Both the position numbers and the translations under genes were made by a program. A DNA stretch of 64,000 nt, taken from contig NW_023365729.1 in the NCBI RefSeq assembly GCF_000003815.2, positions 84,327-148,326 on the forward strand. Reading direction: 5' to 3'. A model generated the notes under the pieces. That model was not told the origin of the DNA. It did not search any database and was given only the letters and a program-made list of their open reading frames with translations. How positions within the stretch are numbered: position 1 is the stretch's first letter; each line of letters opens with the position of its first letter. The stretch comes from Branchiostoma floridae (taxonomy: Eukaryota; Chordata; Leptocardii; Amphioxiformes; Branchiostomatidae). Below are positions 182 through 42,715 of this stretch, piece after piece.

Positions 182-3100
182 ATGGCGTATACTCCGTTAC
201 AGCGGTCAGCAAAAACCGGAGCACCTGCAGGTGCGGCTGCCCCACCGAGCTATTCAAGGATATGGAATCGACCCCTGCCGCCAGTCCCTACCGAGGATCT
301 GCTCCCAAGGGCTGCAGAAATGCACGAGCGAGATCACGGAAATGGAGAACAGGTCGCGTCGTCTCCACAAGAAGATTTCGTCGAAATCTTAGACTGCCAG
401 AATCCGGGGGGAGCTCGCCTTCCCTCCGTGAAGTTCACGAGGGCATCGCCTCCTCTCACCCGACAGGTACCGAGGGCGCTGTCTCATCACTCCGGACAGG
501 CACCGAGGGTACCGCCTCATCACTCTGGGCAGTCACCGAGGGTACCGCCTGATCGCTCTGGACAGGCTTCAGGGGTACCGCCTCATCACTCCGGACATGC
601 ACCGACCCGCTCCGGACAGGCGCCGGGGGCACCGCCTCATGGCTCCGGACAGGCACCACATCATCACTCCGGACGGGCACCGACCCATCGCCCCGGACAG
701 GCACCGACCCATCGCTCCGAACTAAGCTCCGAACAGACACCGGAGGTACCAACCCATCGCTCCGGACAGGCACCGACCCATCGCTCCGAACAGACACCGG
801 AGCTACCGCCTCATCGCCCCGGACAGGCACCGACCCATCGCTCCGGACAGGCACCGGGGGGTCCGGATGATCACAATCAGTCACCAGGGGCACATGGGTA
901 CCACAACCTTCAGAAGCAAGACAAGAAGCACGTACAATCGAATCCGATGTATGGCGGAGATCTGCCATCAGGTCAGTTGGAAAATTATGACATGGTAGAT
1001 AGATTACATTGTTCACCATTCTTCGTTAACGGGGACAATTGGGTTAATATTGTCAGAAAATTAAAGCTCTCCAAAATACGCTTAACCAGTAATATATATA
1101 ATATGAAGTCATCATATCTATGGTTGACTACTACCGTTTGTCCTATTTTGAGTGGCGCTAACAGATTTCATTTTTTAGAAGAAAATTGCGACGTTTTTTC
1201 CGCGATAACATAACGTTAGGGATCAGTCACATGAGTGCGAATAAAGTCCTTATGAGTTGCATATTGCCATTCTTTTGTTCTTTTATTGTGTAGACTTGCT
1301 AATGGTTATCGAACTGAAAAAGAACAACCCTTTTGTGCCTAAAATTGACCTCAACAAAAAAGTGAAAATACTTAACAAACAAAAAATGTATTTTTGTGCA
1401 GCCTAGTTATTGAAGTTAAAAAAACTTTTTTCATTTGCAAACTTTATCTAAATCCGATATTTGCGGAATAGGGAACTCATACGGAATTGAATGTACGCAC
1501 TCGTATTCACACGTGCCTATATGTTCAAGTGCGTATGAGGTGCGTATGGAAGTCTTAGCCTCTGCCAGACTCCACAGGTTGTTGGAAAAATAGTTGGACT
1601 GATATGGACAGATAACATGCCAAACGAGTTAGCTAGGTCGCAAACCATACTCCTCGGTCAGCTAACTCGTTTCGGGCTACTTCTGGCATGTTATCTGTCT
1701 ATATTTGTCCAATTAGTATATATTTTCCAACGACTTTTGAGCCTAGTAGAGGCTAAGAACTCCACACGGACCTCATACGGACTTGAATATAAACGCACGT
1801 GTGAACCCGGCTTTAGGTTGTCATTATGATGAATACAATCTGAGCGATCAGACCTCAGCATTTAATCTCTACTATACAGACAAATACTTATCTGGTGGTG
1901 TTTCTATTGCTTCTTATGACTTGAAGGGCAAGGTTATTTCTCCAAAAGGCAGCATATAAGGCGCGCTATATTTTACCTCTAAAGACACGCTATATTTTAC
2001 CTCTAAAAGTGACAATTGGTGTAATTTGTTGGGTATCTTTTTTCCAAAATTTTCTTAGTTGTGGGCTTGATACGCAAAAGCAGTTACAAACCCACAAAAC
2101 CGTGAAAATATTATCGGAAAGTGTCTTTTCGTGGGATAATAATGCTCAACAGTTGTTCGATAACGTGATTTAGTAACTTGACCGATAACGTAAACAAGCG
2201 AACATAGTAACGTAGTAAAAAAAAAAGTTGGAGACATGACATGATATGCTAGACAACTTCATCCACCGGTGTCAAGCCAAATTTCTGCCCCGCCATATTT
2301 TTGCTCCTTGAGGTAGGGGCGCGACTAATTTCCGTCTCGTAAACAGTCGTCGCCTTTTGCATATACAAAACAATGTATTTTCATACACTAGTATATTACG
2401 CTCTGTCACTTGAAGCGTATTAGAACGCTCTTTCTTCTTTCACAGTGCTGTATCTTGGTGTAGTTGATCATTTGTGGTTAAGGTTGATAGGGATGGGTAC
2501 GTACCGGTACAGTGTACGGGACCTGAAAAAAACAACAGACAGAGGACCGGATGTTGGACCGATTAGAAAATGATTTACCGGAAGACATTCACATGTTTTA
2601 GGCCTTACACGTCTAAGAAAATAACGATAGCGAAGTAGAGGAGAATTGATAGTCATTTGTAGTTTCTAAAGTCAAGCTTTGTCTAAAACAGTGTAGTACA
2701 AGAAAATAGTATTTAAAACCAGTGGACGTTTGACATACTCCATCAAACATAGTCCTTTGTAGCGAAATAGACCATAATTTTAATATCGCCCATTCAGACG
2801 TTTTACATCAATTAGGACCAGGTTCATATCCGGACCTGGACCTGATCCTATGGACCTGGACCGTACCTGGACCTGAATTTTCTGTACTGGTACCCACCCT
2901 AGCATTGACAAATTCATCATAATGAAGACGAAAAACGAAAAATCATCATGCAAATTTCATGAAGCAAACACGGCTCATAAAAACAACGACCAAAAAAATC
3001 AAGCCTGTGATTTTCTTAATCCAATGGGCCTTGCTGACGAAATGGAGTGCTTTCCTTCGAATTCAAAGTGCGTACACCCAGAGTATTGGTGTTTACGGAC

Positions 3101-6100
3101 AACACTATATTTTTATTCAGATATTTACATGCTTCTACATCCAATCAGTGCACACGATATATCGTTTTGTTGTCGCGTATTGCAAGCATGCAAGGCGTTT
3201 ACAATTTCACGCTTTTTAATCGCATACTTACAGACACAGTTCTTTTAACCACGTTTACATGGATTTTGCATGGAAAATGAACAACGTATAAAATGCTTGC
3301 GAAGGGAAGTTATTCGAAACCTATACAGTATAGTGATAGAGCGAATTGCGTACGGTTTAATCACATATTTTCCCTTTTTTGCTTGAAGTTACTGTGTTGT
3401 CAAGCAAGGATGAAGAAAATGTACATGCAGTATCGGTCATCTGTCAGTAGAAATTGGAAATCTCATTCAAAATTTCATCTGAAATGCCTCCGTGTGCGAT
3501 AGAATAAGATTTCATACAACCCTCCCTCCCCACGATACTTACAGAACAATCCCGCAGTCCGCCATTTTGAAATATTTACGTCAAGGATACACACCATATT
3601 ATTAACTATAAATATACTAAAAGTATACCTTTTAAACTATACAATGAAAATGCGCCCTACGTCTTTAGGCACTTACAAACACGTTGGCTTGATCTCTCGT
3701 AACATATCTATTAACCACAAATATACCTTAGAAAGCTTTTCAAAAAAGCCAAATAAAGTAAAACATTATTAAACATAAATCATGCAAATCAGGGCGTAAT
3801 TTTATGATTTATTAGGACATTCTGCAACAGCTTTTTTTAATAAGACAAGACGTCCGTACTTTGAACAACGTGTACTTTAACTTATTACAGTAGAGAAGGT
3901 GATCAACTGAAATGAATTACAAACAGGACCTTTATGTTCATTGAGAAAAATCAATACTATAGGACGTAATTCGGATACCTATATTTTTCAATGGTAGATT
4001 AAGACCCGCTTTTCATACATGCAAAGTAGTTAATGAAATTTGGCGAAAGTATGGGGTAGTAAAACTCTAGCTTTAATCTAAGAAGCACAGTCTTAGACCG
4101 AGTACCTGTGATGGTCTAGATCCTTGTCATGTGAGCCCTGGTAGCCATACATGTATGCCATTAGTCACTGGAAACGTTAGTTTTCTATAACAACTTCTGT
4201 CAATCAGCAGGCGGCCCCGGCCAAGTTCGACATCCACCGGATGGGGCAGGACAACCGGACCAGACGGTGCCGGGCCCGCCCGCACACGTGCAAAGGGATG
4301 ATGGGGAGGCTGTCCCCAAGACCCCAGCAAGAAGCACCGTTGGGGCCCAACCCGCGACGGCCTCCACACACGTGTACGATAACGAAAGACCAACAGTCGG
4401 ACAGCCTCCGGACGGCGGCGGTCTAAGCGCGCGGGCTCCCCCACTTTTCCCGAGACCAGGAGCAAGAACCACCGACGGGGCCCAACCTGCGGCGGCCGCC
4501 ACACACGTGTACGATAACGAAAGACCAACAGTCGGACAGCCTCCGGACGGCGGCGGTCTAAGCGCGCGGGCTCCCCCCATTATCCCGAGACCAGGAGGAA
4601 GAACCACCGACGGTGGGGCCCAACCTGTGGCAGCCTCCACACACGTGTACGATAATGAAAAACCGACAGTCGGACAGCCTCCGGACCGCGGCGGTCTAAG
4701 CGCGCGGCCTCCCCCACTTTTCCCGAGACCAGGAGCAAGAACCACCGACGGGGCCCAACCTGCGGCGGCCGCCACACACATCTACGAGAATGATGACACG
4801 TTCGGACAGTGTCTCGGGCCACCTCTGAACCGGGACGCTCTCGGCGCACCACCTGTCCCCTCTACTCCGAGGCCAGGAAGAAGAACCACCGACGGGGCCC
4901 AACCTGTGGCGGCCGCCACACACCTGTACGAGGATGGTGACGCGTTCGGACAGCGTCTTGGACCACCTCTGAACCGGGACGCTCTCGCCGCACCGCCCGT
5001 CCCCTCTACTCCGAGGCCCGCGAGGAGGAACGATCAGATGGGCAGCCCGAATCAGCCTCCAGGTAGACTACTACAATATATGTTTATGTCCCGCCCTGAA
5101 GTGTGTATGACGACTTAAGGCCTACTCGGTTCCTTTGGTTACCTCCTAATCAACTTCGCTTTGCTCGGTCATCATATACACCAAGGAAAAGGCGGGACAT
5201 AAACGTTATCACCATTTGGCCTGTTAACCCTGACACCGCTCTAGACAACACTGGACTTTTCTTTGCAAAACTTTTGCAACTAACGCTGCATACCTTCTCC
5301 CCCTCATAGACGCCGCTAGAGAAAGACGTTCAATCTGGGAACAAGTATGTCAAGGCCGAGGAACCGCCATCATCATTCTAGCGTCCGTCGTCATGGTAAC
5401 GCTGATGCTCTCAGTACTGGTACATGTACTTCTGGTGCACACCACATCCCTGCCGTCGCACCCTGACTCTGTGAGTTGACATCTTTGAACATCTTACGAA
5501 ATATTTCTTGTATGAAAGATTATTCACGCCCAGGAAATTCTTTCTTGGCATAGTTTACGGTAATTCTTGTCGTACCCGCTAGAATTTCATACCGTAAATA
5601 CAATTTAGATAGATAAATACATACTGTGTATCTTTGCTGTACAGATTACTAAGACAGGACTTTCAAGAGACTATACGCACTTTGTCTGTGCAAATTCCAC
5701 CATTGGTACTGGAAAAATTATTGGGTGCAGCAAAAATTTATAACGGGTACGGTAAGAGTTACTGGGTACGGTAAGAGTTACTGGGTACGGCAAGAAAGGA
5801 GTTCGTAAGAGTGTGTTTTGACAAAACGGGGCATAGTTTGTGAATGTATTATGTGACCTTCTGAATCCAAGCTTGGGTAAGATCGTAAACTAAAACAGAA
5901 CATTGAAAGTTTCTAAAGAGTTTTAAAGAGTCATCTCAAAGTAGTCGGAGGAAGAAGGCATCTGAAAAAGTTGTCCGTCAAAAGAAATGGTAAAGTACAA
6001 GAAAATCAAGGTTGAGGACTTTTAGGGTCTTCTAAAACTGCATGTTTGCACAATTAACAGTATCCATATGTCTGTTTGTAGCCTACAACAGACACTGGAG

Positions 6101-8916
6101 GAACCAACACCACTGGTGGTACTGCCTGGAAAAGTTCCCATGTGCTGAAGACTGTGGCGTCGGCTGACGTCATCATGGTCAGTACCTGTCTCAGTACATA
6201 GACCTTTGTCAGGAGTTGCTTACAGACTGTGGAATGCTTATACAGCTGTATAGCTTTTGTCTAGGAAATTTACGCATATCAAAATTAGTCAGGTTGTAAA
6301 ATATCATTTAACAACGTTTGAATGTTTTCTCCAGCCGCCTTAAACAACCAGAGTCCCTGACAGACCTCTTTATTCTATACCAGACTGACTATCCTACCAG
6401 AGGAGTTGGTTAGCCGTGCAGCCAACATGAACCTAAGCGCGGAATAACTCCTCTGGCCATTTTTTTCGATTTCTACGATTCCCATATCCCTGTAAGAATG
6501 TCTGGTGGAGGCTAGACCTCTTGGTGTATTGGAAGAAGTGTAGAAATTGCATGCCAAAATAGGGGCACTGTTTTGATACTAATAGAGGGCTTAGTCGATC
6601 ATTGCATAACCTGGAATCCAGTCTAGTTGTGGCACGACCTACCGTAGTTAGTGTAGGCTCTCTACGGGGCCAGTGCAGCTCTCAACCGCCAGTGTAATCA
6701 TTCACACCTGGTAGCATTTTCCCGGTAGGCCTTTGCCCACCCCCACCGTGCAAAACTCCTACCAGGTGTGAAAGATTACCCCGGCGGTGGAAAGACCCTC
6801 CTGTCCCGAAGGTAGCCTTGCCAATCCACGGTAGACAGGATTCCAGGTTAATCATTGACCTTGCAGTACAGGTACCGGTGTCTTTATCTTTGTTGTTTGC
6901 TAATGGCAACCCTATGGTCAGCTGACTCCTCTGGTCACTTTTTTTCACCAACTAACTCAGAGTCTGAAACAAAGTTGTAAGGTTCATAATTTGAGACGTA
7001 CATATAATAACCGTTACACAGATCAACCCCGTCCCCGGCCGCAGTTCTCCTGAAGCTGTCACTGCCCACGTGGAGACAGCAGCACCTGAAGAAGCCTCCA
7101 GGCCACTTTCCGTGGACACTAAAGGTGTGTCATTACTCACTGATCTTGGCATGTGCGAGGGCTGCTCATGTTAGATTTCCGTTGGTTCACTTATGATTAT
7201 TGCTCGATGTAGGTTAGACATTCAGGTAATAAGATATGCCGAAAAAGCAGTTACTCAAGCAAGTTGATATGATTTTGGAAACGTCAGATAGTGACACTGA
7301 CGAAAGATTGTGGATACTATCTGAAACGTCAGAAATTCCACATCTACTGTAATACATATCTCTGTACGTCTACGTCATATGACTGTTCAGGTTTTTGTTG
7401 CTAGCTGGAAAGGTGGGCTGGGGGGGGGGGGGGTGACAGAGGAGCCAGTAGATTATCGAAGTGAGTTCGTCAAAGTTTTTCGAAGACTAATTTTCAAGCA
7501 ACTGTTAATAAAGAGGGATGAATCTTGGCAAATGTATTACTCTTTCAATAACTATAGCTAATACCTGTGTCAACTGTTCCTTCCTCGTCTAGGTCTACTA
7601 ATGGTCTATGAAAAACATTGAATAAACCCTGATGACTGCTCTGAACTCACCATCCCTAGCCGAGTTCAGGATTGAAAATGACTGGTCAAATTTCAGTCTC
7701 CTATACGAATAGAAGATGCAAAAAATGAATACATGTCTAAGAGTGCCAGACAAAATATCCATTGAGCCACCATCATATAATGCGCTTGATTGTTCAACTT
7801 CAATGACATTTTTAAGACTGACAAAATGTAAATTTGAGGTCAATTTGACGTACTGTCAGGCTGCATCATGCTTCACGTGACAACCCACTCAAGTCCACAA
7901 GCTGGTAAACACTTCTGATCAGATTAAAACATTTCCAGTGCATGTATCGTCCCTTCTGTTACTGATACTAGAGAGACATTAAACGATTAGAATGTTCGAG
8001 GAATGACTATTGTAAAGACTGATCTCGCCCTCATAAAATGAATTTGTGATTGAATAACTGACCTTCCTTTTCTTGTATTGCTGTAGAAGCACATCCCATC
8101 ACCTTTGGTGGGGAGTCGGGGGATGGAAGCCTGAGCTACGCATGCGGAGTTGCAGTTTCCTCCGACAACAAAATCTGGGTGGCTGATCAGAACAAAGCTC
8201 GCCTCCAAGTCTACAACATGGAAGGTGCCTACCTGTACCAGTTCCCACGAGGTGCACCGGGGCTAGGGTACCCATCAAAGAAACCATATGGTGTGTCCAT
8301 CGACAGGGATGGTCATCTGTGGGTCTTGATGTTAGGGTATCCTGCCAGCCCTGACTCCGTGGTGCAGGTCAGCAGAGATGGCCATCTGAAGGCCAACTTT
8401 GACCTGCCTGACACTGTACCCAGTCAGAGTTACACGGGAATGGCAGTGGACCTGCGTAATAACCGCATTTTGGTCACATGGTCTGACGGTATGAAAGGTG
8501 GCATGCAGGCCTTCAACCCGGATGGGAAACTCCTGTGGTCGGATGTCGGCCGGGCCTGGATGAAGGCGCCCAAGTACGTCGCCGTCGACCGGGAAGGCAA
8601 CAGCTTTGTCTCGGACTATAGCACTCACGTCATCTACAAGTATGACGACACCGGACGGTACGTGTCCAAGTTCGGAGGACCGGGACTGAGCGGTGCCAAG
8701 CTGAATCGTCCTCAGGGCATCTGTGTGGACAGTCAGTCCGGTCACATCGTGGTGGTGGATTCGAAAAATCCGCGCGTGGTGGTGTACACGAGCCGGGGCG
8801 CGTATGTCCGCCACATCGCTCTCCGTATTGCGCACCCAACAGGGGTGGCAGTAGGGCCGAGTGGAGAGTTGGTTGTGACAAACAAAAACACCATCGTTGT
8901 CTTAGCCCGCTATTGA
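182..8916 (+). CDS. NHL-propeller type II membrane protein, copy A (6 exons)
   Basis: Coding exons join(182..971, 4208..5062, 5310..5470, 6082..6177, 7022..7124, 8087..8916), 2,835 nt, 944 aa. All introns are GT-AG with phases 1,1,0,0,1, the same as in copies B and C. Cytoplasmic tail: PPSY at 21-24, the SH3-type ligand RPLPPVP at 30-36, a His/Pro/Ser/Gln-rich array to about residue 235, NPMY at 254-257, then five repeats of about 47 residues carrying THVYDNE-like tyrosines. A single hydrophobic helix lies at about 567-592 with no signal peptide before it, so type II topology is inferred. The stalk has one N-glycosylation sequon (NTT). Residues 670-944 form six NHL-like blades. The ATG at 182 was chosen because it is conserved in all three copies. 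The ligand and cellular role are unknown. NHL repeats are best known from intracellular TRIM proteins and from secreted or membrane enzymes; the receptor-like reading is inference. Confidence 0.85.
456..971 (+). repeat. In-frame 24/33-bp coding repeat array, copy A exon 1
   Basis: About 14 degenerate units of 8 or 11 residues (type HHSGQAPRVPP or HRSGQAPT). Unit lengths are multiples of three, so array length can change without breaking the frame. By hand count the arrays hold about 14 units in A, 19 in B and 8 in C. The antisense strand is also open across the array; I treat that as a composition effect. Confidence 0.85.
1214..1820. mobile_element. Foldback MITE in intron 1 of copy A
   Basis: Long inverted arms: 1,214-1,260 and 1,490-1,655 pair with 1,660-1,820. 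Examples are the left AGATAACATGCC against the right GGCATGTTATCT, and the left CACACGTGC against the right GCACGTGTG. The same element sits at the orthologous place in copy B (15,571-16,204). Copy C keeps only an end-to-end remnant (34,662-34,888). No coding capacity. Confidence 0.6.
2488..2901. mobile_element. hAT-like nonautonomous element, intron 1 of copy A
   Basis: The ends are inverted: left TAGGGATGGGTAC, right GTACCCACCCTA. The interior holds several GGACCTGG motifs. TAGGG-type ends resemble hAT MITEs, but I could not identify an 8-bp target duplication. Present in copy B (16,852-17,274), missing from copy C. Confidence 0.45.
4330..5062 (+). repeat. In-frame ~141-bp tyrosine-motif repeats, copy A exon 2
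   Basis: Five units of about 47 residues. Each has a T-H-[VIL]-Y-[DE]-[ND] tyrosine core, then a G-Q-x-P or G-Q-x-L-G-P-P segment and a PRPGxRTTDG linker. Three units carry YDNE, one YEND and one YEDG. YxN is the Grb2-type SH2 consensus; phosphorylation is inferred, not shown. B has five units and C has three. Confidence 0.85.
5747..5808. repeat. Short tandem repeat, about 21-bp unit
   Basis: Three imperfect units of the type GGGTACGGTAAGAGTTACT lie in intron 3 of copy A. Copies B and C have only one or two diverged units here. Confidence 0.55.
6684..6795. repeat. Hairpin-forming inverted repeat in intron 4
   Basis: The left arm (CCGCCAGTGTAATCATTCACACC) is inverted at 6,765-6,795 with a few mismatches; I give the pairing by position because the arm is longer than about 20 bases. 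It is also present in copy B (21,558-21,680) and deleted from copy C. Probably a MITE relic. Confidence 0.5.
8087..8916 (+). CDS. Copy A terminal exon: six-bladed NHL-type propeller
   Basis: The acceptor at 8,085-8,086 opens a phase-1 exon that runs to a TGA at 8,914-8,916. The 275 residues contain six blade-like units that each begin with a G-V/M/I-x-V-D/S type strand ([42 protein letters not shown]) and continue with D/N-x-x-x-V and an aromatic-rich outer strand. This fits NHL or 6-bladed propeller folds. Copy A differs from B and C at several exposed-looking positions (for example KKPYG against KEPRD, STHVI against GTHSI, and the C-terminal IVVLARY against IFVFARY), so it is the divergent ectodomain of the three. 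Confidence 0.85.
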
Positions 8917-13992: not shown

Positions 13993-14669
13993 CAGTTTGC
14001 ATATAATCGTGCTTCTCTTGATTCTTCCAAGTCACCCACAACGCAGAAACTATTAAAATCCATTCATCCCTTCTTGAGTGTATCCTGGTTTGAAAACAAG
14101 AACAAGTGTGTAGTTCAAGCAACGCTGCCAAAAGTTTCGAGCCAACAACATCTATACAATACCTTACGCTAAACGTCACTGTATAACGGCACACACGTGT
14201 ACATGTTTTACGATACAAAGTTGACTCGGAGGTGGTTTATATGTATAGAGTTCAAAGCTTGCTGTAAATAAGAAAATTCCGAAGCGTATTGAGCGGGTGT
14301 TACATGTGAACATATCCAATCTCCAGACAATTAAGTGTTGACGTTTTCGAATTTCGTGTAGAACCAAGCAGGGATCAGTACCGAGCTAGGTGCGGACCGA
14401 GATGGCGTATACTCCGTTACAGCGGTCAGCAAAAACCGGGGCACCTGCAGGTGCGGCTGCCCCACCGAGCTATACCAGGATATGGAACCGACCCCTGCCG
14501 CCAGTCCCTACCGAGGATCTGCTCCCAAGGGCTGCAGAAATGCACGAGCGAGATCACGGAAACGGAGAACAGGTCGCGTCGTCTCCACAAGAAGATTTCG
14601 TCGAGATTTTGGACTGTCAGAATCCGGGGGGAGCTCGCCTTCCCTCCGTGAAGTTCACAAGGGCATCAC

Positions 14670-15335
14670 CTCCTCTCTCCCGACAGGCACCGAGGGCGCT
14701 GTCTCATCACTCCGGACAGGCACCGAGGGTACCGCCTGATCGCTCTGGGCAGTCACCGAGGGTACCGCCTGATCGCTCTGGACAGGCTTCAGGGGTACCG
14801 ACCCATCGCTCCGGACATGCACCGACCCATCGCTCCGGACAGGCGCCGGGTGCACCGCCTCATGGCTCCGGACAGGCACCAGAGGTACCGCCTCATCACT
14901 CCGGACAGGCACCGACCCACTCCGGACAGGCGCCGGGTGCACCGCCTCATGGCTCCGGACAGGCACCAGAGGTACCGCCTCATCACTCCGGACAGGCACC
15001 GACCCACTCCGGACAGGCGCCGGGGGCACCGCCTCATGGCTCCGGACAGGCACCACATCATCACTCCGGACGGGCACCGACCCATCGCCCCGGACAGGCA
15101 CCGACCCATCGCTCCGATCAGACACCGGAGGTACCGACCCATCGCTCCGGACAGGCACCGACCCATCGCTCCGAACAGACACCGGAGCTACCGCCTCATC
15201 GGCCCGGACAGGCACCGGGGGGTCCGGATGATCACTCCGGACAGTCACCAGGGGCACATGGGTACCACAACCTTCAGAAGCAAGACAAGAAGCACGTACA
15301 ATCGAATCCGATGTATGGCGGAGATCTGCCATCAG
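14670..15335 (+). repeat. In-frame 24/33-bp coding repeat array, copy B exon 1
   Basis: About 19 units, the longest of the three arrays. It includes a nearly exact higher-order duplication: the block APGAPPHGSGQAPEVPP followed by HHSGQAPT occurs twice in a row (about 14,845-15,010), a sign of recent unequal exchange. Confidence 0.85.
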
Positions 15336-17274: not shown

Positions 17275-17384
17275 GTTACGGATAAGGCCTTTTTGTTCTG
17301 AATCGGGTTTGAATCAGAGTCGCACTTTCTCTCTTTTCGATATTTTTACCATCTACAGGTATTACGATATTGTGATTGAACTGT

Positions 17385-17513: not shown

Positions 17514-20500
17514 TTTACTTTTAGAGCTAGAGTCCAAAGAATCATTGACAAATTCATCATAATGAGGACGAAAAACGAAGAATTATCATGCAAATTTCAT
17601 GAAGCAAGCACGGCTCATGAAAATAACGACCAAAAAAATCAAGCCTGTGATTTTCTCAATCCAATGGGCCTTGCTGACGAAATGGAGTGCTTTCCTTGGA
17701 ATTCAAAGTGCGTGCGCCCAAAGTATTGGTGTTTAAGGACAACACTAGATTTTTATTCAGATATCTACATGCTTCTACATCTTATCAGTGCACACGATAT
17801 ATCGTTTTGTTGTCGCGTATTGCAAGGCTTTTACAATTTCACGCTTTTTAATCGCATATTTACAGACACAATTCTTTTAACCACGTTTACATGGCTTTTG
17901 CATGGGAAATGAACAACGTATAAAATGCTTGCGAAGGGAAGTTATTCGAGACCTATACAGTATAGTGATAGAGCGAATTGAGTACGGTTTAATCAAATAT
18001 TCTCCTATTTTGCTTGAATAGCAAGTCACTGTGTTGTCAAGCAAGGATGAAGAAAATGTACATGTAGTATCGGTCATCTGCCAGTAAAAATTGGAAATCT
18101 TATTCAAAATTTCATCTGTGCGATAGAATGAGATTTCCTACAACCCTCCCTCTCCACAATACTTACAGAACAGTCCCGCAGTCCGCCATTATGAAATATT
18201 TACGTCAAGGATACACACCATATTAATAACTATACATATACTAAAAGTATACCTTTTAAACTATACAATGAAAATGGACCCTACGTCTTTAGGTACTTAA
18301 CAACCTGTTACCCTTACAAACATATTGGCTTGATCTCTCGTAACATATCTATTAACCACAAATATACCTTAGAAAGCTTTTCAAAAATGCCAAATAAAGT
18401 AAAACATTATTAAACATAAATCATGCAAATCAGGGCATAATTTTATGATTTATGAGGACATTCTGCAACAGTCAGTTTTCTTTAATAAGACAAGACGTTC
18501 ATACTTTGAACAACGTGTACTTTAACTTATTACAGTAGAGAAGGTGATCAACTGAAATGATTTACAAACAGGACCTTTATGTTCATTGAAAAAAATCAAT
18601 ACTATAGTACGTAATTCGGATAGCTATATTTTGCATTGGTAGATTAAGACCTGCTTTTCATACATGCAAAGTAGTGCGAAAGTATGTGTAGTGAAACTCT
18701 AGCTTTAATCTAAGAAGCACAGTCTTAGACCTAGTACCTGTGCTGGTCTAGATCCCTATCCAGTGAGCCCTGGTAGCCATTCACAACTAAACATGTATGT
18801 TCTTAGTTACTAGAAACGTTAGTTTTCTATAACAACTTCTGTCAACCAGCAGGCGGCGCCGGCCAAGTTCGACATCCACCCGACGGGGCAGGACAACCGG
18901 ACCAGACAGTGCCGGGCCCGCCCACACACGTGCAAAGGGATGATGGGGAGACTGTCCCCAAGACCCCAGCAAGAAGCACCGGCGGTGGGGCCCAACCAGA
19001 AGCGGGTGCCACACACGTGTACGATAACGAAAAACCGACAGTCGGACAGCCTCCGCACCGCGGCGGTCTAAGCGCGCGGCCTCCCCCCATTATCCCGAGA
19101 CCAGGAGCAAGAACCACCGACGGGGCCCAACCCGCGACGGCCTCCACGGACACGTGTACGATAACGAAAAACCGACAGTCGGACAGCCTCCGCACCGCGG
19201 CGGTATAAGCGCGCGGCCTCTCCCCTCTATCCCGAGACCAGGAGCAAGAACCACCGACGGGGCCCAACCCGCGACGGCCTCCACACACGTGTACGATAAC
19301 GAAAAAAACACGGTCGGACAGCCTACGGACCGCGGCGGTCTAAGCGCACGGCCTCTCCCCTCTATCCCGAGACAAGGAGGAAGAACCACCGACGGGGCCC
19401 AACCTACGGCGGCCGCCGCACACATCTACGAGAATGATGACACTTTCGGACAGCGTCTTGGGCCACCTTTGGACCGGGACGCTCTTGGCGCACCGCAAGT
19501 CCCATCTACTCCAAGGCCAGGAGGAAGAACCACCGACGGGGCCCAACCTGTGGCGGCCGCCACGCACTTGTACGAGGATGGTGACGCGTTCGGACAGCGT
19601 CTTGGACCACCTCTGAACCGGGACGCTCTCGGTGCACCGCCCGTCCCCTCTACACCGAGGCCAGGTAGAAGGAACGATCAGATGGACAGCCCGAATCAAC
19701 CTCCAGGTAGAATACTACAATATATGTTTATGTCCCACCCTGAAGTGTGTATGACGACTTAAGGCGTACTCGGTTCCTTTGGTTACCTCCTAATCAACTT
19801 CGCTTCTTTGGTCATCATAAACATTATCACCATTTGGCCTGTTCACCCTGACACAGCTCTATGTAACCCGTATTGACAGTGTCTTTGGGTCTCTTTCCAC
19901 TCAGCGGCGTGGCACGCAGTGTGTAGCGCGCCGATAACGTTTAGGATCCGTCACGGTGTCTCAGGCATGCTCCAAAGCAAACTTCTAAGGCTGTTTATCT
20001 ACCTGGCTTGCTATCCTATCTCTAGTTGACTTAGATAGACCATGTTTGTTTTACACCCCCTTCACATGCCTATATAGATAGTTTTTTTTCCATTCTTCAC
20101 CGTTAATATAGCTCTAAATCGTACAATTCTTTTCATTGCCCAAAATTCCTTCAACACTGGACTTTTCTTTGCAAAAATGTTGCTAACGCTGCATATTTTC
20201 TCCCCCTCATAGACGCCGCTAGAGAAAGGCGCTCCATCTGGGAACACGTATGCCAGGGCCGAGGAACCGCCATCATCATTCTAGCGTCCGTCGTCATGGT
20301 AACGCTGATGCTCTCGGTACTGGTACATGTACTTCTGGTGCACACCACATCCCTGCCGTCGCACCCGGACTCTGTGAGTTGACATCTTTGAACATCTTAC
20401 GAAATATTTCTTGTATGAAAGATTATTCACCCCCAGGAAATTCTTTCTTGGCATAGTTTCCGGTAATTCTTGTCATACCCGCTAGAATTTTATACCGTAA

Positions 20501-23095: not shown

Positions 23096-23928
23096 GTTTC
23101 CTTTCCTTGGGAAGCAACAGTGGTGAGAGGGGGGATGGAAGCCTGAACTACGCACGTGGAGTTGCAGTTTCCTCCGACAACAAGATCTGGGTGGCTGATC
23201 AGAACAAAGCTCGCCTCCAAGTCTACAGCATGGAAGGTGTTTACCTGTACCAGTTCCCACGAGGTGCACCGGGGCTAGGGTACCCATCAAAGGAGCCACG
23301 TGATGTGTCCATCGACAGGGATGGTCACTTGTGGGTCCTGATGTCTGGGTACCCTGCCAGCCCTGACTCCTTGGTGCAGTTCGGCAGGGATGGCCATCTC
23401 CAGGCCAAATTTGACCTGCCTGACACTGTACCCGGTCAGAGTTACACGGGAATGGCAGTGGACCTGCGTAATAACCGCATTTTGGTCACATGGTCTGACG
23501 GTATAAAAGGTGGCATGCAGGCCTTCAACCCGGATGGCAAACTTCTGTGGTCGGATGTCGGCCGGGCCTGGATAAAGGCGCCCAAGTACGTCGCCGTCGA
23601 CCGGGAAGGCAACAGCTTTGTCTCGGACTATGGCACTCACTCCATCTACAAGTATGACGCGTCCGGGCGGTACGTGTCGAAGTTTGGAGGGCCGGGACTG
23701 AGCGGTGGCCGCCTGAATCGTCCTCAGGGCATCTGTGTGGACAGTCAGTCCGGTCACATTGTGGTGGTGGATTCGAATAATCAGCGCGTGGTGGTGTACA
23801 CCAGCCAAGGCGCGTATGTCCGCCACATCGCTCTCCGTATTGCGCACCCAAGAGGGGTGGCAGTTGGACAGAGGGGAGAGTTAGTTGTGGCAAACAAAAA
23901 CACCATCTTTGTCTTCGCCCGCTATTGA
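23096..23928 (+). CDS. Copy B terminal exon: NHL-type propeller, intact
   Basis: Phase-1 exon after the acceptor at 23,094-23,095, ending in TGA. The 277 codons give six NHL-like blades with no internal stop. It is closer to copy C than to copy A (both have the [21 protein letters not shown] and IFVFARY segments). It starts with one codon more than the A and C exons (FLSLGSN segment). The good condition of this exon argues that the exon 2 frameshift is young or artefactual. Confidence 0.8.
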
Positions 23929-24956: not shown

Positions 24957-24964
24957 TGATAGCG

Positions 24965-30300: not shown

Positions 30301-30786
30301 TGGGGGCATTATCAAGGCACATCTCTGTCAAATTTCAGCTCATTTGGTTGTAATACCAGGGTACAGGGGCCAAAAGTGTCCTTTTTTGGTCAAAAATTTG
30401 TCAAAAAATCGCAAAAATAAGCATTTTGTTGTACTGTACACCAAAAGTGTTATCGAATTTATATGGGGGCATTATCAAGGCACATCTCTGTCAAATTTCA
30501 GCTCATTTGGTTGTAATACCAGGGTACAGGGGCCAAAATATACAGTTTTGGTCTAAAATTGACCAAAAAATCTCAATAAAATCATTTTAGAGGCAGATAT
30601 GAAAAAAATGGGAAAAAAGGATCAAGGTATTGGCCCATTCTACCCCTGTGCCAAATTTCAGGTCATTCGGTCCAGGAACGGCGGAGATGAATCACTTTGA
30701 AGATTTGACAGGAGAAAGAAGAAAGAAAGAAAGAAAGAAACATTACGAATACAATATATTTCACCATACTATGTATGGCTGAAATA
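27304..30786. mobile_element. 3.5-kb insertion with internal tandem repeats, unit B only
   Basis: Units A and C read GAATATTGAATATTTAAAACC without interruption (11,850 and 45,206 regions). Here that site is split by about 3.48 kb. Inverted TATTTCAGCCATA (about 27,343) and TATGGCTGAAATA (about 30,774) lie near the ends. The interior shows a direct duplication of a several-hundred-bp block (around 28,790-28,920 against 29,450-29,575) and the 163-bp tandem array. A (GAAA)n tract sits near the 3' end. No conserved protein domain was seen, so the superfamily is unassigned. Confidence 0.55.
29841..30665. repeat. Tandem array, ~163-bp unit, about 5 copies
   Basis: AAATTTCAG anchors recur at 29,841, 30,003, 30,166, 30,330, 30,493 and 30,653. 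The spacing of 160-164 bp is not a multiple of three, so the open frames here are by-products. Shared phrases include CCAAAAGTGTCCTTTTTTGG and TACACCAAAAGTGTTAT. Confidence 0.85.
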
Positions 30787-33516: not shown

Positions 33517-36500
33517 ATGGCGTATACTCCGTTACAGCGGTCAGCAAAAACCGGGGCACCTGCAGGTGCGGCTGTCCCGCCGAGCTATACCAGGATATGG
33601 AATCGACCCCTGCCGCCAGTCCCTACCGAGGATCTGCTCCCAAGGGCTGCAGAAATGCACGAGCGAGATCACGGACATGGAGAACAGGCCGCGTCGTCTC
33701 CACAAGAAGATTTCGTCGAGATTTTGGACTTTCAGAATCCGGGGGTAGGTCGTCTTCCCTCCGTAAAGTTCACGAGGGCATCGCCTCCTCTCACCCGACA
33801 GGTACCGAGGGCACTGTCCCATTACTCTGGGCAGTCACCGAGGGTACCGCCTGATCGCTCTGGACAGGCTTCAGCGGTACCGCCTCATCACTCCGGACAT
33901 GCAACGACTCATCACTCCGGACAGGCACCCAGTAGGGCGCCGCCTCATCACTTCGGACAGACACCGCAGGTACCACCTCATCACTCCGATCAGTCACCGG
34001 AGGTACCGCCTCGTCGCTCCGGACAGGCACCGGGGGTACCGCCTCATCACTCCGGACAGGCACCAGGGGCACACGGGTACCACAATCTTCAGAAGCAAGA
34101 CAACAAGCACGTACCATTCAATCCGATGTATGACGGAGATCTGCAACCAGGTCAGTTGGAAAATTATGACATCGTAGATATATTACATTAGTCACCATTC
34201 TTCGTTAATACAAACAATTGGGGTGAAAGATTGCAAAAAAAAAGTCGTCAAGTTATCCAACATACTTAATCAGTGATAGATATAACTTTATTGCACAACA
34301 ATTGTACGAGGTACAAAGTATGGCATCTACATAACTACAGTTCTATAGCTTAACTAACTAAAACAGGAGTTGTAGTATGGGATAAGCTTCTTACAATGAT
34401 TGGAAGCTTTTATAATCAGTTGAGGAGTACTAGTTTCTAATATCCAAACCTTCTTTGATATATTTTCCTATATCTGCCATGCAGTGATTGTCACATGTCA
34501 TGATGTGTTTGAATTTGCACTTCAGGTCTATTGAGATAAATCCTTGTGTATGAAGTTGTCATATCTATGGTTGACTACTACCTTTTGCCCTATCTTGAGT
34601 GGCGCTAGCAAATTTAATTTTTTTAGAAGAAAATGACGACGCATTTTCCGCGACAACATAACCTTAGGGATCAGTCACACGAGTGCAAATAAAGTCCGTA
34701 TGAGTTGCATATTCTTTTGGTTTATCTCAAGATTGCGGGGAAGAAGTGTATTACTTAGACTTTTATTGTGTAGACTGGTTAGTGGTTATCGAACTGAAAA
34801 GACTTTTCAGCGACTTTGGAGCCTGAAAGAGGCTAAGAATATATACGGACTTGAATATATACGCACGTGTGAACCCGGCTTTAGGTTGCCATTATGATGA
34901 ACACAATCTGAGCAATCAAACCTCAGAATTTTATCTCAGACTCAAACTACAGACAAATAATTATCTGGTGGTGTTTCTATTGCTTCTTATAAATTGAAGG
35001 GCAAGATTATTTCTCCACTAGGCAGCACGATAACGTAACGTTATATTTTACCTCTAAAAGTGACAATTGGTGTAATTTGTCGGGGATGGTTTCATTTTTT
35101 TTCCAATGTTCTCTAAGCTGTGGGCTTGATACGCAAAAGCAGTTACAAACCGACAAAACCATGAAAATATTATCGGAAAGTGTCTTTTCCTTGGACAATT
35201 ATGCTCAACAGTTGTTTAATAACGTAACTTAGTAACTTGTTCGATAACGTAAATAAGCAAACATAGTATCATAGTAAAAAAAGTTGGACACAAGACATCA
35301 TATGCTGGACAACTTCATCCACCGGTGACAAGCCGGTGTCAAGCCGAATTTCTGCTCCGCCATATTTTTGCTCCTTGAGGTAGAGGCGGCTAATTTCCGT
35401 GCCTTTTGCATATATTTCCATGTCCTAGTATATTACGCTCTGTCACTTTAAGCGTTTGAATCAGAGTCGCACTTTCTCTCTTTTCGATATTTTACCATCT
35501 ACAGGTATTACGATATTGTCGTACATTTGTGTTTGAACTGTTGCTTTATATACGTTTTGCTTCTTGTCAAACTCTCCCAAAATTATGAGTTAGCTGGGGC
35601 TAAAGCTGGTACTAGGGCTAGGGCAAGGGATATGGCTATGGCTATGGCTAGGGCTATGGCTAGGGCAAGGGCTAGGGCTAGGGCTAGGGCTAGGGCTAGG
35701 GCTAGGGCTAGGGCTAGGGCTAGGGCTAGGGCTAGGGCAAGGGCTAGGGCTAGGGCTAGGGCTAGGGCTAGGGCTAGGGCTAGGGCTAGGGCTAGGGCTA
35801 GGGCTAGGGCTAGGGCTAGGGCTAGGGCTAGGGCTAGGGCTAGGGCTAGGGCTAGGGCTAGGGCTAGGGCTAGGGATAAGGCTAGGGCTAGGGCTAGGGC
35901 TAGGGCTAGGGCTAGGGCTAGGGCTAGGGCTAGGGCTAGGGCTAGGGCTAGGGCTAGGGCTAGGGCTAGGGCTAGGGCTAGGGCTAGGGCTAGGGCTAGG
36001 CTAGGGCATGGGTTTAGTTTTAGAGCTAGAGTCCCACGAATCATCGACAAATTCATCAGAATAAGGACGAAAAATTATCATGCAAATTTCATGAAGCAAA
36101 CACGGCTCATTAATGACCAAAAAAACAAGCCTGCGATTTGCTTGACCGGGGGGGGGGGGTGCTGACGAAACAGAACCATCTCTTACGAATTGAAAGTACG
36201 CATGCCCAGAGTAATCGTATTTTACGGACAACACGAGATTTTTAACAGATAGCTACATACGTTTACATCCAATAAGTGCACACAATATACCGGTTTTTAA
36301 TCTAATCGCGTATTGCAAGGCTTTTACAATTCCACGCTTTTTAACCGCATACTTACAGACGCAGTTTTTTTTAAAACCACGTTTACATGGCTTTTGCATG
36401 GGAAATGGACAACGTGTAAAATTCGTGGGGAGGGAAGTTATTTGAGATCTATACAGTATAGTGATAGAGCGAATTGCGTACGGTTTATTCAAATATTTTT

Positions 36501-39500
36501 CCTTTTTTTGTATTCAAGCAATAATGAAGACAATGTACATCCATCATCTGCCAGTAGAAATTGGAAATCTTATTCAAAATTTCATCTGAAATGGCTCCGT
36601 GTGCGATAGAATAAGACTTCCTACAACCCTTCCCACGATACTTACAGAACAGTCCCGCAGTCCGCCATTTTGAAATATTTACGTCAAGGATACAAACCAT
36701 ATTAATAACTATACATATACTAAAAGTATACATTTTAAACTATACAATGAAAATGCGCCCTATGTCTTTAAGTACTTAAAATCATGTCGGCTTGATCTCT
36801 CATAACAGATGTGTTAACCACAAATATACCTTAGAAAGTTTTTTAAAAAGCCAAATAAAGCAAAACATTATTAGACATAAATCATGTAAATCAGGGCGCA
36901 ATTTTATGATTTATGAATACATTCTGCAACAGTCTTCTTTAATAACACAAGACGTCCATACTTTGAACAACGTGTACTTTAACTTATTACAGTAGAGAAG
37001 GTGATCAACTTAAATGATTTACAAACAGGACCTTTATGTTCATTGAGAAAAATCAATACTATAGGACGTAATTCAGATACCTATATTTTTCAATGGTAGA
37101 TGAAGACCTGCTTTTTATATATGCAAAGTAGTTAATGAAATTTAGCGGAAGTATGGGGTAGTAAAACTCTAGCTTTAATCTAAGAAGCACAGTCTTAGAC
37201 CGAGTACCTGTGATGGTCCAGATCCCTGTCCTGTGAGCCCTGGTAGCCATTCACAACTATACATGTATGTCATTAATCACTGGAAACGTTAGTTTTCTAT
37301 AACAACTTCTGTCAACCAGCAGGCGGTGCCGGCCAAGTTCGACATCCACCCGACGGGGCAGGACAACCGGACCAGACGGTGCCGGGCCCGCCCACACACG
37401 TGCGAAGGGATGATGGGGAGACTGTCCCCAAGACCCCAGCAAGAAGCACCGGCGGTGGGGCCCAACCCGCGACGGCCTCCACACACGTGTATGATAACGA
37501 AAAACCGACAGTCGGACAGCCTCCGGACCGCGGCGGTCTAAGCGCACGGCCTCTCCCCTCTATCCCGAGACCAGGAAGAAGAACAACCGACGGGGCTCAC
37601 CCCGCAGCAGCCGCCACACACATCTACGAGAATGATGACACTTTCGGACAGTGTCTCGGGCCACCCCTGAACCGGGACGCTCTCGGTGCACCACCCGTCC
37701 CCTCTACTCCGAGGCCAGGAGGAAGAACCACCGACGGGGCCCAACCTGTGGCGGCCGCCACACACCTGTACGAAGATGGGGACGCGTTCGGACAGCGTCT
37801 CGGGCCACCTCTGAACCGGGACGCTCTCGGTGCACCGCCCGTCCCCTCTACTCCGAGGCCCGCGAGGAGGAACGATCAGATGGGCAGCCCGAATCAGCCT
37901 CCAGGTAGACTACTTCAATATATGTTTATGTCCCGCCCTGAAGTGTGTATGACGACTTAAGGCCTACTCGGTTCCTTTGGTTACCTCCTAATCAACTTCA
38001 CTTCGCTCGGTCATCATACACACCAAGGAAAATGCGGTACATAAAAACGTTATTGTTATTTGGCCTTTTCACCCTGACACAGCTTTAAATAACCGGTATT
38101 GACGGTGTCTTTGGGTCTCTTTCCACTCAGTGACATCGGCACACAGTGTGTAGCACGTCGATAACGTAGGTTCCATCATGGTGTCTCAGGCATGCTCCAA
38201 AGCAAACTTCTAAGGCTGCTTATCTACCTGGCTTGCAATCCCATCTTTACGGACTCACTTGACTTAGATAGACCATGTTTTTATGTAGACAGTTTTTCCA
38301 TTGTTCACCGTCAATACTGCTGCAAATTCTTTTTATTGCTAAAAATTTTCTCGACACTGTGGGACAACCACATTGTTAAAATGGTAGCTAAGGCGAACTC
38401 CGTCCTGGGTTTCATCAAACGCACAATTGGTTTTAACGCTAACACTGATGTCCGTAAGGCACCGTACACCACATTGGTCAGAAGCATCCTAGAATACTGT
38501 TCTCCATTGTGGTCTCCCCAGTCTAGGAAACTCATGTCCTTAGTAGAGGGAGTGCAGCGCCGAGCTACTAAATTCATTTTAGGTCCCCAGTCTACCGACT
38601 TAACCTACAAAGAAAGACTGACAGCACTACAACTGCTACCACTCACGTACAGGCGGGAGGTGTGTGACATTATGCTTTTTGTCAAATCGAGGTCAACTGT
38701 GGAGAAATATGTGTCATTTCCCACAAGGCCGACTAGAAGTATTAGATCCTTCATGCTTACTCCTGTTAGATCTAAGACCTCAGCGTTCCATCACTCCTAC
38801 ATTCCTAGACTGGTAACAATCTGGAACTTGTTGGCTCCTGGCCTCCGTTGTATCGGACAGCTAGCAGCCAATCAGCCTGATGCGTTAGCATTCAAGCACA
38901 AGTTGGTAAAGTCTGCCTATGACAGACTCAGTTTACAATACAGTCTTGACCAACCTTGCACTTGGTCCACTTCTTGTGGGTGTGGCTCATGTGTGGCGTG
39001 GAGGCCGCGCAAGGCAATAGTTTTATAAGTAGTGCTACCCAGATTATGCTTTCCATATATATATGACCTGTATTATGACCTGTATTGTATGTACAGGTTG
39101 TTGTTGCTGCTTGTATGTTATTTATTTGTATGTACTGGTGTTATTTTTATGTGAGGGAGGGCAACTTGTAAAGGTTGTTCGAACCTGTTTTGCCCTCCCA
39201 ATTATCACTGTGTGATGAATTCAAATAAACAAAATAAACAAATAAACTGAGCACTGAACTTTTCTTTGCAATTAACGCTACATTATTATATTTTCTGCCC
39301 CTCATAGACGCCGCCAGGGAAAGACGTTCAATCTGGGAAGTATGCCAGGGCCGAGGAACCGCCATCATCATTCTAGCGTCCGTCGTCATGGTAACGCTGA
39401 TGCTCTCAGTACTGGTACATGTACTTCTGGTGCACACCACATCCCTGCCGTCGCACCCGGACTCTGTGAGTTGACTTCTTTCAACATCTTACGAAATATT

Positions 39501-42500
39501 TCTTGTATGAAAGATTATTCACCCCCAGGAAATTCTTTCTTGGCATAGTTTCCGGTAATTCTTGTCATACCCGCTAGAATTTTATACCGTTAATAAAATT
39601 TAGATAGATAAATATAAACTGTTTATTGTTGTTATACAGGGCACTAGTACTTAGACATGACTGTCAAGTGACTATACGCACTTTTCCTGTGCAAAGTACA
39701 CAGTTGGGCGTGACAGGCAGAAATATTGGGTGCGGCAAAAACTTCTAACGGGTACGGCAAGAATAACTGGGCACTGCAAGAAAAGAATTTCGTGGTAGTG
39801 TGTATCGACAAAATGGGACACATGTGTACAGTTTATGAATGCGCTAGCATTATGCGACCTCTTTGATCCACTATAACAGAACTTTGGAAGTTTCTTAAAA
39901 CTAAAAGTGTTTAAAAAGTCATCTCAAAGTAGCATAATGCTGTAGTCAGAAGTAGATGGATTGGTGAAAACATCGGGTTGTGTGGTATTACTTACACACT
40001 CACTCAAGTATCGTACAATTAACAGTATCCGTATGTCTGTAGCCTACAACAGACCCTGGAGGAACCAACACCACTGGTGGTACTGCCTGGAAATGTTCCC
40101 ATGTGCTGAAGACTGTGACGTCGGCTGACGTCATCATGGTCAGTACCTGTCTCAGTATTTTAAATAGGCCTTTGTCAGGAGTTGCTTACAGACTGTGGAA
40201 TGCTTATACAGCTGTATAGCTTTTGTCTAGGACATTTACGCATATCAAATTGAATCGGGTTGTAAAATATCATTTAACACCGTTTCAATATTTTCATCTC
40301 CTACCTTAAATAACCATAGTCCCTGACAGACCTCTTTATTCTATACCAGACTGACTACGCTGGCTATTATAGGGAAATAATTTGCCAGGGGAGTTTTCTA
40401 CCAGAGGAGTTGGCCGGTCGCGAGGGGGAACATTAACCGTAGCGTTGACTGACTCCTCTGGCCACTTTTTTTGCCGAATTCTACGATTCCCATACCCCTG
40501 TAAGAAGGCCTAGTGGAGGCTAGACCTCTTGGTGTATTGGAAGAAAGTGTAGAAATTGCATGGCCAAAATAGGGGTGCTATTCTAATAGAGGGCCTGGCC
40601 GATCATGATATGGGCTACAAGTGAGTCCACCATCGTTGGTTGTAAATGGTCACCTTTTTTTCACCAACCCACGGAGTGAGATAGAGTCTGAAACAATGGT
40701 GTAAGATTCACAATTTGACAAGTACACGTGATAACCGTTACACACACAGATCAACCCCGTCCCCGATCGCGGTTTTCCTGAAGCTGTCACTGCCCACGTG
40801 GAAACAGTACCACCTGAAGAAGCCTCCAGGACACTTTCCGTGGACGCTAAAGGTGTGTCATTACTCACTGAACTTGACATGTTGGCACTTATGATTGTTC
40901 CTCGATGAAGATTAGACATCCAGGTAATAAGATATGCCGAAAAAGCAGTTACTCGTCTCAAGCAAGTTGATATGATTTTGGAAACGTCGTCAGATAGTGA
41001 CACTGACGAAAGATTGTGGATACTATCTGAAACGTCTGACCGTTTCCAAAATCATATCCAGTTGCTAATGCTTGAGTAACTTCTTTTTTAGCATAATTTA
41101 TGATTATTATTTCATCGGGCTGAAATTCCACATCTACTGTAATACACATCTCTATACATCTATGCCATATGACTGTTCAGGTTTTGTTGCTAGCTGGAAA
41201 GGTGGGCTGGGGTGTGATAGGGGAGCCAGTAGAGTGATTATCGGGGCCTTGAACACGCGGTTTGTTCGTTAAAGTTTTTCGAAGACTAATTTTCAAGCAA
41301 CTGTAAATAAAGATTGGTGAAACATGGCAAATGTATTACTCTTTCAATAACTAAAAACTGTGCCAACTACTCCTTCTTTTCGTGTAAGACTAACCGTACC
41401 GCGTGTTCAGAGCTGATGACTGCTTTGAACTCACCATCCCTAGCCGAGTTCAGAATTGAAAATGACTTGTCGAATTTCAGTCTCCAATACGAATAGAAGA
41501 TGCAAAAAATGAATACATGTTTAAGAGTGCCAGAAAAAAATATCCATTAAGCCACCACCCTATAATGTGCTTGATTGTTCAACTTCAATTTTAATGACAT
41601 TTTTTAGACTGACAAAATGTAAATTTGAGGTCAATTTGACGTACTGTCAGGCTGCATCATGCTTCACGTGACAACCCCACTCAAGTCCACAAACTAGTAT
41701 ACCCTTCTGATCAGATTAAAACATTTTCCAGTGCATGCATATGCATCGTCCCTTCTGTTACTGTTACTAGAGAGGCATTAGACGATGAGAATTTTGGAGG
41801 ATTGAATGTTGCAAATTGTGATCTAACCCTCATACAATGAATTTGTGACTGAATAATTGACCTTCCTTTTCTTGTATTGCTGTAGGAGTGTCCTTGGGAA
41901 GCAGCAGTGTTGAGAGGGGGGATGGAAGCCTGAGCTACGCACGCGGAGTTGCAGTTTCCTCCGACAACAGGATCTGGGTGGCTGATCAGAACAAAGCTCG
42001 CCTCCAAGTCTACAACATGGAAGGTGTTTACCTGTACCAGTTCCCACGAGGTGCACCGGGGCTAGGGTACCCATCAAAGGAGCCACGTGATGTGTCCATC
42101 GACAGGGATGGTCACTTGTGGGTCCTGATGTCTGGGTATCCTGCCTGCCCTGACTCCTTGGTACAGTTCGGCAGGGATGGCCATCTCAAGGCCAACTTTG
42201 ACCTGCCTGGCACTGTACCCGGTCAGAGTTACAAGGGAATGGCAGTGGACCTGCGTAATAACCGCATTTTGGTCACATGGTCTGACGGTATGAAAGGTGG
42301 CATGCAGGCCTTCAACCCGGATGGGAAACTCCTGTGGTCGGATGTCGGCCGGGCCTGGATGAAGGCGCCCAAGTACGTCGCCGTCGACCGGGAAGGCAAC
42401 AGCTTTGTCTCGGACTATGGCACTCACTCCATCTACAAGTATGACGAGTCCGGGAGGTACGTGTCGACGTTTGGAGGGCCGGGACGGAGTGGTGGCCGCC

Positions 42501-42715
42501 TGAATCGCCCTCGGGGCATATGTGTGGACAGTCAGTCCAGTCACATTGTGGTGGTGGATTCGCGCAATCAGCGCGTGGTGGTGTATACCAGCCAGGGCGC
42601 GTATGTCCGCCACATCGCTCTCCGTATTGCGCACCCAAGAGGAGTGGCAGTTGGACAGAGGGGAGAGTTAGTTGTGGCAAACAAAAACACCATCTTTGTC
42701 TTCGCCCGCTATTGA
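33517..42715 (+). CDS. NHL-propeller type II membrane protein, copy C (6 exons)
   Basis: Exons join(33517..34150, 37320..37904, 39308..39465, 40043..40138, 40750..40852, 41886..42715), 2,406 nt, 801 aa, with the same intron phases as A and B. The cytoplasmic tail is the shortest: about eight short repeats in exon 1 and three tyrosine repeats in exon 2 (YDNE, YEND, YEDG). It keeps PPSY, RPLPPVP and NPMY (here in NPMYDGD). Exon 3 has lost one codon just before the membrane helix (IWEVCQ against IWEQVCQ in A), in frame. The propeller exon is intact and close to that of copy B. Intron 2 holds a 5'-truncated LINE, and intron 1 a large hexamer array and a LINE 3' fragment. The function is unknown; the architecture suggests a surface receptor or adhesion protein. 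Confidence 0.85.
34277..34550 (-). mobile_element. 5'-truncated LINE 3' end in intron 1 of copy C
   Basis: This segment is absent from copies A and B. On the - strand it ends in GCAATAAAGTTATA, typical of the 3' end of CR1/L2-like non-LTR elements. No coding part remains. Confidence 0.4.
34662..34888. mobile_element. Deleted remnant of the intron 1 foldback MITE, copy C
   Basis: Keeps the left end (TTAGGGATCAGTCAC) and the right arm (CGCACGTGTG...GGCTTTAGG). The inner left arm is lost, so it can no longer fold into the long hairpin. Confidence 0.5.
35594..36007. repeat. (GGGCTA)n array, about 65-70 units, copy C intron 1
   Basis: Expanded version of the array at 17,385-17,513, with scattered variants (GGGCAA, GGCTAT, GGATAA), mostly near the 5' side. 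Two sense frames contain no stop, so long artificial Ala-Arg or Gly-Leu frames appear; these are not genes. Confidence 0.95.
38359..39249 (+). mobile_element. 5'-truncated CR1/L2-like LINE in intron 2 of copy C
   Basis: The frame ending at 39,028 encodes the C-terminal region after the reverse transcriptase: a [11 protein letters not shown] segment, [22 protein letters not shown], and the C-terminal [12 protein letters not shown]. This is typical of CR1, L2 and related LINE ORF2 tails. A 3' UTR follows and ends in ATAAACAAA-type repeats. Copy B shows the empty site (AACACTGGACTTTTC). Here CACTG occurs on both sides of the insert, a likely short target duplication. The element is dead because its 5' part is absent. 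Confidence 0.75.
40944..41085. repeat. Hairpin in intron 5 (copy C; also B, partly A)
   Basis: The left arm GATATGATTTTGGAAACG is matched inverted by CGTTTCCAAAATCATATC, with an inner stem of the type CAGATAGT and ACTATCTG. Copy B has the same hairpin at about 22,130-22,262. In copy A the right arm is deleted (7,250-7,345). Confidence 0.65.
41886..42715 (+). CDS. Copy C terminal exon: NHL-type propeller
   Basis: Phase-1 exon after the acceptor at 41,884-41,885, ending in TGA at 42,713-42,715. Six NHL-like blades without interruption. Differences from copy B are few and mostly at blade edges (for example [26 protein letters not shown]). Confidence 0.85.

Follow-up and report, generated by a model that had tools for sequence, protein, structure and literature searches.

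A 64-kb stretch of the Branchiostoma floridae genome (513 Mb in 431 contigs) carries three tandem copies of one six-exon gene unit on its plus strand, at 182-8916, 14402-23928 and 33517-42715. The stretch, referred to below as the window, is 64,000 nucleotides long and covers positions 84327-148326 of contig NW_023365729.1 (C171 in our labelling). Each copy encodes a proline-rich tail, a single helix, a linker and a predicted propeller of the NHL type. The same order of tail, helix, linker and NHL domain was found at 12 of 13 loci distributed over three contigs, and we regard this architecture as practically certain. The reading of the genes as a whole that we favour, with moderate confidence, is that of a family of putative tyrosine-docking receptors, which would sit at the cell surface, bind a ligand and signal. 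An earlier note on this DNA had suggested a possible lineage-specific surface receptor system. That suggestion is borne out in part, by the exon order, the coding constraint and the predicted fold and helix; surface location, ligand and signalling are conjectural.

Gene structure and coding constraint of the tandem copies

All 15 introns of the three copies have GT-AG borders, and in copies 1 and 3 the intron phases, calculated from the exon lengths, are 1, 1, 0, 0 and 1. In every copy exon 1 begins with an ATG, and an in-frame stop precedes its open frame. The reading frame runs uninterrupted to a stop codon over 943 amino acids in copy 1 and 800 in copy 3. In this assembly, exon 2 of copy 2 contains a 2-base insertion that shifts the frame and leads to a stop about 60 bases later; past the insertion, the other frame is open to the end of the exon. 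The three six-exon paralogues of the earlier note are thus confirmed in their structure, borders and outer limits (182 and 42715), except for the frameshifted exon 2 of copy 2. The copies are spaced at 14.2-15.4 kb (first interval) and 17.9-19.1 kb (second), and exon 1 measures 790, 934 and 634 bases in copies 1 to 3, the length of the tail varying through the number of repeats. The repeated unit is present over just ~220 bases of the 10 kb lying 5' of the window, so copy 1 is the first of the array.

Exons of the three tandem copies (positions in the window)
Feature	Positions	Strand	Content
Copy 1 exon 1	182..971	+	start ATG, proline-rich tail, RPLPPVP and NPMY
Copy 1 exon 2	4211..5062	+	tail repeats, tyrosines VYDNE / IYEND / LYEDG
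Copy 1 exon 3	5310..5470	+	predicted membrane helix
Copy 1 exon 4	6082..6177	+	linker, NTT sequon
Copy 1 exon 5	7022..7124	+	linker
Copy 1 exon 6	8087..8916	+	predicted NHL propeller, stop
Copy 2 exon 1	14402..15335	+	
Copy 2 exon 2	18853..19706	+	frameshift, 2-base insertion near 19148
Copy 2 exon 3	20213..20373	+	predicted membrane helix
Copy 2 exon 4	20953..21048	+	
Copy 2 exon 5	21907..22009	+	
Copy 2 exon 6	23096..23928	+	predicted NHL propeller
Copy 3 exon 1	33517..34150	+	
Copy 3 exon 2	37323..37904	+	fewer tail repeats
Copy 3 exon 3	39308..39465	+	predicted membrane helix
Copy 3 exon 4	40043..40138	+	
Copy 3 exon 5	40750..40852	+	
Copy 3 exon 6	41886..42715	+	predicted NHL propeller, structure modelled

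Gaps between the copies are divisible by three in 29 of 31 cases in exons and in 56 of 244 in introns, and both exonic exceptions are the single insertion of copy 2, counted in two pairs. Taken over all exons, Ka/Ks amounts to 0.41, 0.44 and 0.38 in the three copy pairs, with exon 2 of copy 2 read as two parts and the codons flanking the insertion excluded; the tail exons give 0.36-0.40. In the helix exon, 0-1 changes are non-synonymous and 5-7 are synonymous. Taken individually, exons 4 and 5 hold too few changes for their Ka/Ks to be judged, and some of the ratios exceed 1.

Divergence in the three copy pairs is 9%, 21% and 18% in introns and 8%, 9% and 7% in exons. Introns 1 and 4 are 94-95% alike between copies 1 and 2, a divergence not above that of the exons, and identity between copies 2 and 3 is 94% for intron 3 and 96% for exon 6. 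This patchwork of similarity across 182-42715 suggests exchange between the copies.

The window contains several other features. At 48825-57818 on the plus strand, inspection by eye revealed a tyrosine-bearing N-terminal exon, a stretch near 50795 that resembles a helix and precedes an NFS sequon, a threonine-rich stretch and a C-type-lectin-like end, and PF00057 matched LDLa domains in two frames; this is likely a neighbouring type II receptor gene. A C-terminal exon at 24965-25220 (minus strand), beside a 100-base N gap, has no Pfam match, and we take it to resemble short-chain collagen C4-like proteins. Retrotransposon-like open frames occur inside intron 2 of copy 3 (38165-39028, plus strand, seen by eye) and at 58876-59739 (minus strand, with a zf-RVT match under the cut-off). 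Tandem arrays lie at 17291-17596 and from 35515 onward (12/18-base spacing, intron 1 of copies 2 and 3), at 56231-57083 (79-base unit) and at 29751-30540 (163-base unit).

Predicted propeller, membrane anchor and related loci

Exon 6 of the three copies matches the NHL profile PF01436 with E values of 2e-23 to 5e-30 (81-103 bits; the curated cut-off is 20). A structure prediction, named in the earlier note as a check on this exon, returned a six-bladed propeller for copy 3: 23 strands form five four-strand blades and one three-strand blade (pLDDT 83.7 and pTM 0.85, from an alignment of 3 sequences only). Judged by this predicted structure and its matches, exon 6 is a six-bladed propeller of the TRIM-NHL type. 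The ectodomain has two cysteines in copy 1 and three in copy 3.

We searched the animal's own genome with the NHL exon of the window. Among the 140 of 722 candidates that were scored, at least 10 further NHL exons lie on short open frames: nine, including a partial one, on contig C6 at 64-70% identity, and another on C16 at 58%; the next-best matches in the same set are long open frames, chiefly on C17, at no more than 48% identity. The context of these ten loci was read from 10 kb reaching upstream of each. At nine of them the NHL exon is preceded by a tail exon 2 and by a helix exon that has diverged, with order and strand conserved, and at the tenth (L045) just exons 5 and 6 are visible in a region containing 1026 N. 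Exons 4 and 5 were each detected at nine of the ten, exon 5 at all except L052, and five loci yielded an exon 1 (L047, L049, L051, L053 and, partially, L050). Compatible splice sites are present at four C6 loci, in a search that required phase-1 joins. The NHL exons of L049 (= L022) and L053 (= L026) have apparent frameshifts. A genome search with the helix exon of the window at E<=1 recovered only its three copies and was insensitive, missing the diverged helices on C6 and C16.

Exon 3 supplies the sole strong hydrophobic segment of copies 1 and 3 (KD peak 2.88, runner-up 0.9), with four K/R in the 15 residues on its N side and none in the 15 on its C side. The linker exons 4 and 5 that follow comprise 32 and 34 codons. 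An NTT sequon is present in exon 4 of all three window copies, and an N-x-S/T at just three (L044, L046 and L050) of the nine further loci having this exon. The helix reaches KD 2.31-2.93 at the nine further loci and stays within that range over 12 loci, at which 4-7 K/R precede its core and 0-1 follow it. By sequence, the proteins thus have the single helix and basic N-terminal flank of a type II single-pass protein, and the recurrence of the basic side at 12 loci predicts this topology, with the N-terminus inside and the C-terminus outside, which we consider highly probable. The earlier picture of a tail, one helix and an extracellular NHL domain accordingly survives in exon order, single helix and (as a predicted fold) propeller, the placement outside being a prediction from the flanks.

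In a midpoint-rooted tree built from 32 NHL domains, a branch supported at 100/100 separates the 12 full family members from the others, with long-branch warnings for L025 and for the L007/L008 branch that meets the family branch. Six of 38 NHL loci (L001-L005 and L026) were omitted from this tree for a short match or an internal stop, and hence it holds no TRIM71-like rows. The 17 long frames read from C17 (L027-L043) contain no segment above KD 1.5 and no RING pattern, and a large cluster of long-frame NHL genes occupies C17:18.3-18.97 Mb. At C15:20.70 Mb, a single open frame (L007) combines a RING, a B-box and NHL with a membrane-like segment of KD 2.23, and two weaker matches to the helix region of this frame lie close by on C15 (E 2.5e-9 and 8.8e-4); it is possibly a second, separate membrane-NHL class. 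Scans for prokaryotic and viral relatives, with two short peptide patterns each, yielded no confirmed relative among 81 and 37 pattern matches, an absence that means little.

Tail motifs, variable loops and the proposed receptor role

The tails of copies 1 and 3 contain RPLPPVP, one NPMY and tyrosines in the contexts VYDNE, IYEND and LYEDG; in copy 1, no Pfam match was found in stretches of 269 and 272 amino acids that span exon 1 and the greater part of exon 2. We scored motifs in the tails of copies 1 and 3 and of four of the ten further loci (L047, L049, L051 and L053, all on C6), leaving out L050, for which no start was found, and the frameshifted copy 2. The C6 tails were modelled with phase-1 joins imposed and with an exon 3 acceptor 12 bases past the likelier one. 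YxN sites number five in copy 1 and three in copy 3, against ~0.2 in shuffles, and each of the C6 tails has four YMPM/YTPM (YxxM) sites against ~0.3, although these tyrosine motifs lie within tandem repeats, so that the shuffles overstate their independence and significance. The same C6 tails also carry a PPPLPPK-type stretch, two NPMY and two YED/YEN. YxN was not found in three of the four C6 tails scored, nor YxxM in either of the two window tails; common to both groups are only NPxY, present in all six, and Y[ED][DN]. SH3-type proline motifs are present at counts near shuffle level (the fraction of shuffles reaching the observed count is 0.04-0.8). YxN, YxxM, NPxY and proline motifs bind Grb2, p85/PI3K, PTB and SH3 domains, respectively, and NPxY is an endocytic or PTB signal. 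An amphioxus phagocytic receptor works via Grb2 and itself lacks a cytoplasmic tail, according to the accessible part of PMC10199209; that paper therefore speaks for Grb2 serving such receptors in amphioxus and for nothing more.

Variation in the propeller is concentrated in the B-C loops, which we take to share one face. In 12 NHL domains of the family they are the most variable class, with a mean entropy of 1.19 against 0.55-0.74 in other loops (p 0.001). Over 26 B-C sites, pN/pS is 0.86, 2.16 and 0.90 in three groups (n = 4, 4 and 3). The strands of these groups give 0.54, 0.75 and 0.39 and their remaining loops 0.47, 1.09 and 0.46, values that are no more than suggestive of positive selection at the B-C loops. 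In 18 soluble C17-type relatives the bias towards these loops is at least as strong (entropy 1.36, p 1.2e-6), and the variability is therefore not tied to a receptor role. It likely marks a shared recognition face or tolerance.

In the receptor reading, a type II single-pass protein would display a propeller of the TRIM-NHL type outside the cell (or in a lumen) on a short stalk, and its cytoplasmic N-terminal tail would act as a low-complexity docking scaffold. Ligand binding by the propeller would cluster the protein, the clustered tail would become phosphorylated on tyrosine, and YxN (window) or YxxM (C6), NPxY and proline motifs would recruit SH2, PTB and SH3 adaptors. Of this picture we infer the orientation, the surface location and the glycosylation of the protein, as well as its phosphorylation, ligand binding and signalling. 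As a tentative extension, which we hold with clearly less confidence, the family may be an undescribed chordate receptor class: a TRIM-NHL propeller would have become joined to a type II membrane anchor whose tail is IRS- or adaptor-like. The family would then have expanded, its B-C face diversifying into a recognition surface (a single subgroup reaches a pN/pS of 2.16 there) and its subfamilies becoming wired to different adaptors (YxN or YxxM).

The tails could instead belong to a membrane-tethered adhesion or capture protein, whose propeller binds outside and whose tail is a low-complexity anchor without signalling. Such a protein would accommodate a tail length that varies with repeat number, tyrosine motif types that differ by subfamily and proline motifs near their shuffled counts; however, the local context of the tyrosines is kept (four YxxM against 0.3 and five YxN against 0.2 expected), and the tail exons have a Ka/Ks of 0.36-0.40, so we judge this reading unlikely. 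NPxY in all six scored tails speaks against a protein that resides in internal membranes, be it the ER, the Golgi or the nuclear envelope, and turns its propeller to the lumen. The few ectodomain cysteines would suit such a protein, which we find quite improbable. Still further from the evidence is a decaying, unexpressed gene cluster. The frameshifts in copy 2 and, apparently, in L049 and L053 point that way, but two of the three window copies are wholly open and pairwise Ka/Ks is 0.38-0.44, which leaves this reading very improbable.

Lancelet gene models are often in error and some novel domain combinations artefactual, according to the accessible part of PMC4967905, so the tail-helix exons and the NHL exons might come from different genes and be mis-joined in our model. 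Yet order and strand are equal in the three window copies and at nine of ten loci on two other contigs, the first methionine of the exon 6 frame in the window copies lies about 52 residues in, inside the NHL domain, and a simple scan of the interval from exon 3 to exon 6 for an exon that could initiate translation returned 1, 1 and 0 candidates by copy. RING and B-box patterns are likewise absent from the six frames of the window. With the exons in one order at 12 of 13 loci, we reject a mis-join as scarcely credible. If the receptor reading is true, this compact family would show that the NHL recognition fold can face outward as a receptor, and the different tyrosine codes on one ectodomain fold would constitute a natural experiment in receptor rewiring.

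Comparison with known systems

Animal NHL propellers are mainly intracellular, in TRIM-NHL proteins, or form part of the very large teneurins. TRIM-NHL proteins (TRIM2/3/71, Brat and Thin) have a RING and a B-box, whereas neither was found in the window genes, in which a predicted helix precedes the propeller. No RING or B-box pattern was found in the six frames of the 64-kb window, and membership of the TRIM-NHL group therefore fails. The IRS proteins are cytosolic, with PH-PTB heads; the repeated YMPM/YTPM of the four C6 tails resemble those of IRS-type docking proteins, and a membrane helix and a propeller are present here instead. The bloodthirsty-type end of zebrafish btr31 is B30.2. The accessible part of PMC3137616 describes btr31 as a TRIM relative in which a membrane domain replaces the B-boxes and coiled coil; it is alike in having a TRIM-related membrane domain and differs in its C-terminal end, which is of the bloodthirsty type and not NHL.

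The earlier note knew of no described receptor family with this order; to say that none exists is too strong, since teneurins and PknD have such an order. Mycobacterial PknD/Mbk shares the order but is a bacterial kinase, whereas the present proteins are from an animal and their tail has no recognised domain. In the accessible parts of the open-licence literature, we did not find the architecture described in animals outside teneurins. Teneurins are type II proteins with a proline-rich, SH3-binding tail and an extracellular six-bladed NHL propeller, and their ectodomain also holds EGF, YD-repeat and toxin-like domains, as set out in the accessible part of PMC6297184. The TEN_NHL profile scores 21.1-22.7 bits on our sequences, under its cut-off of 27.1, and the short linkers and the stop of the frame at the end of the NHL exon leave no space for EGF domains, a YD shell or a toxin-like end; we therefore do not file the family as teneurins. 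The two are alike in outline, with a type II layout and an NHL propeller (both predicted here); the tail of the present family is proline-rich too, its SH3-type motifs being close to shuffled numbers. They differ in the additional ectodomain domains of teneurins, the NHL domain being the sole folded ectodomain seen in the family described here.
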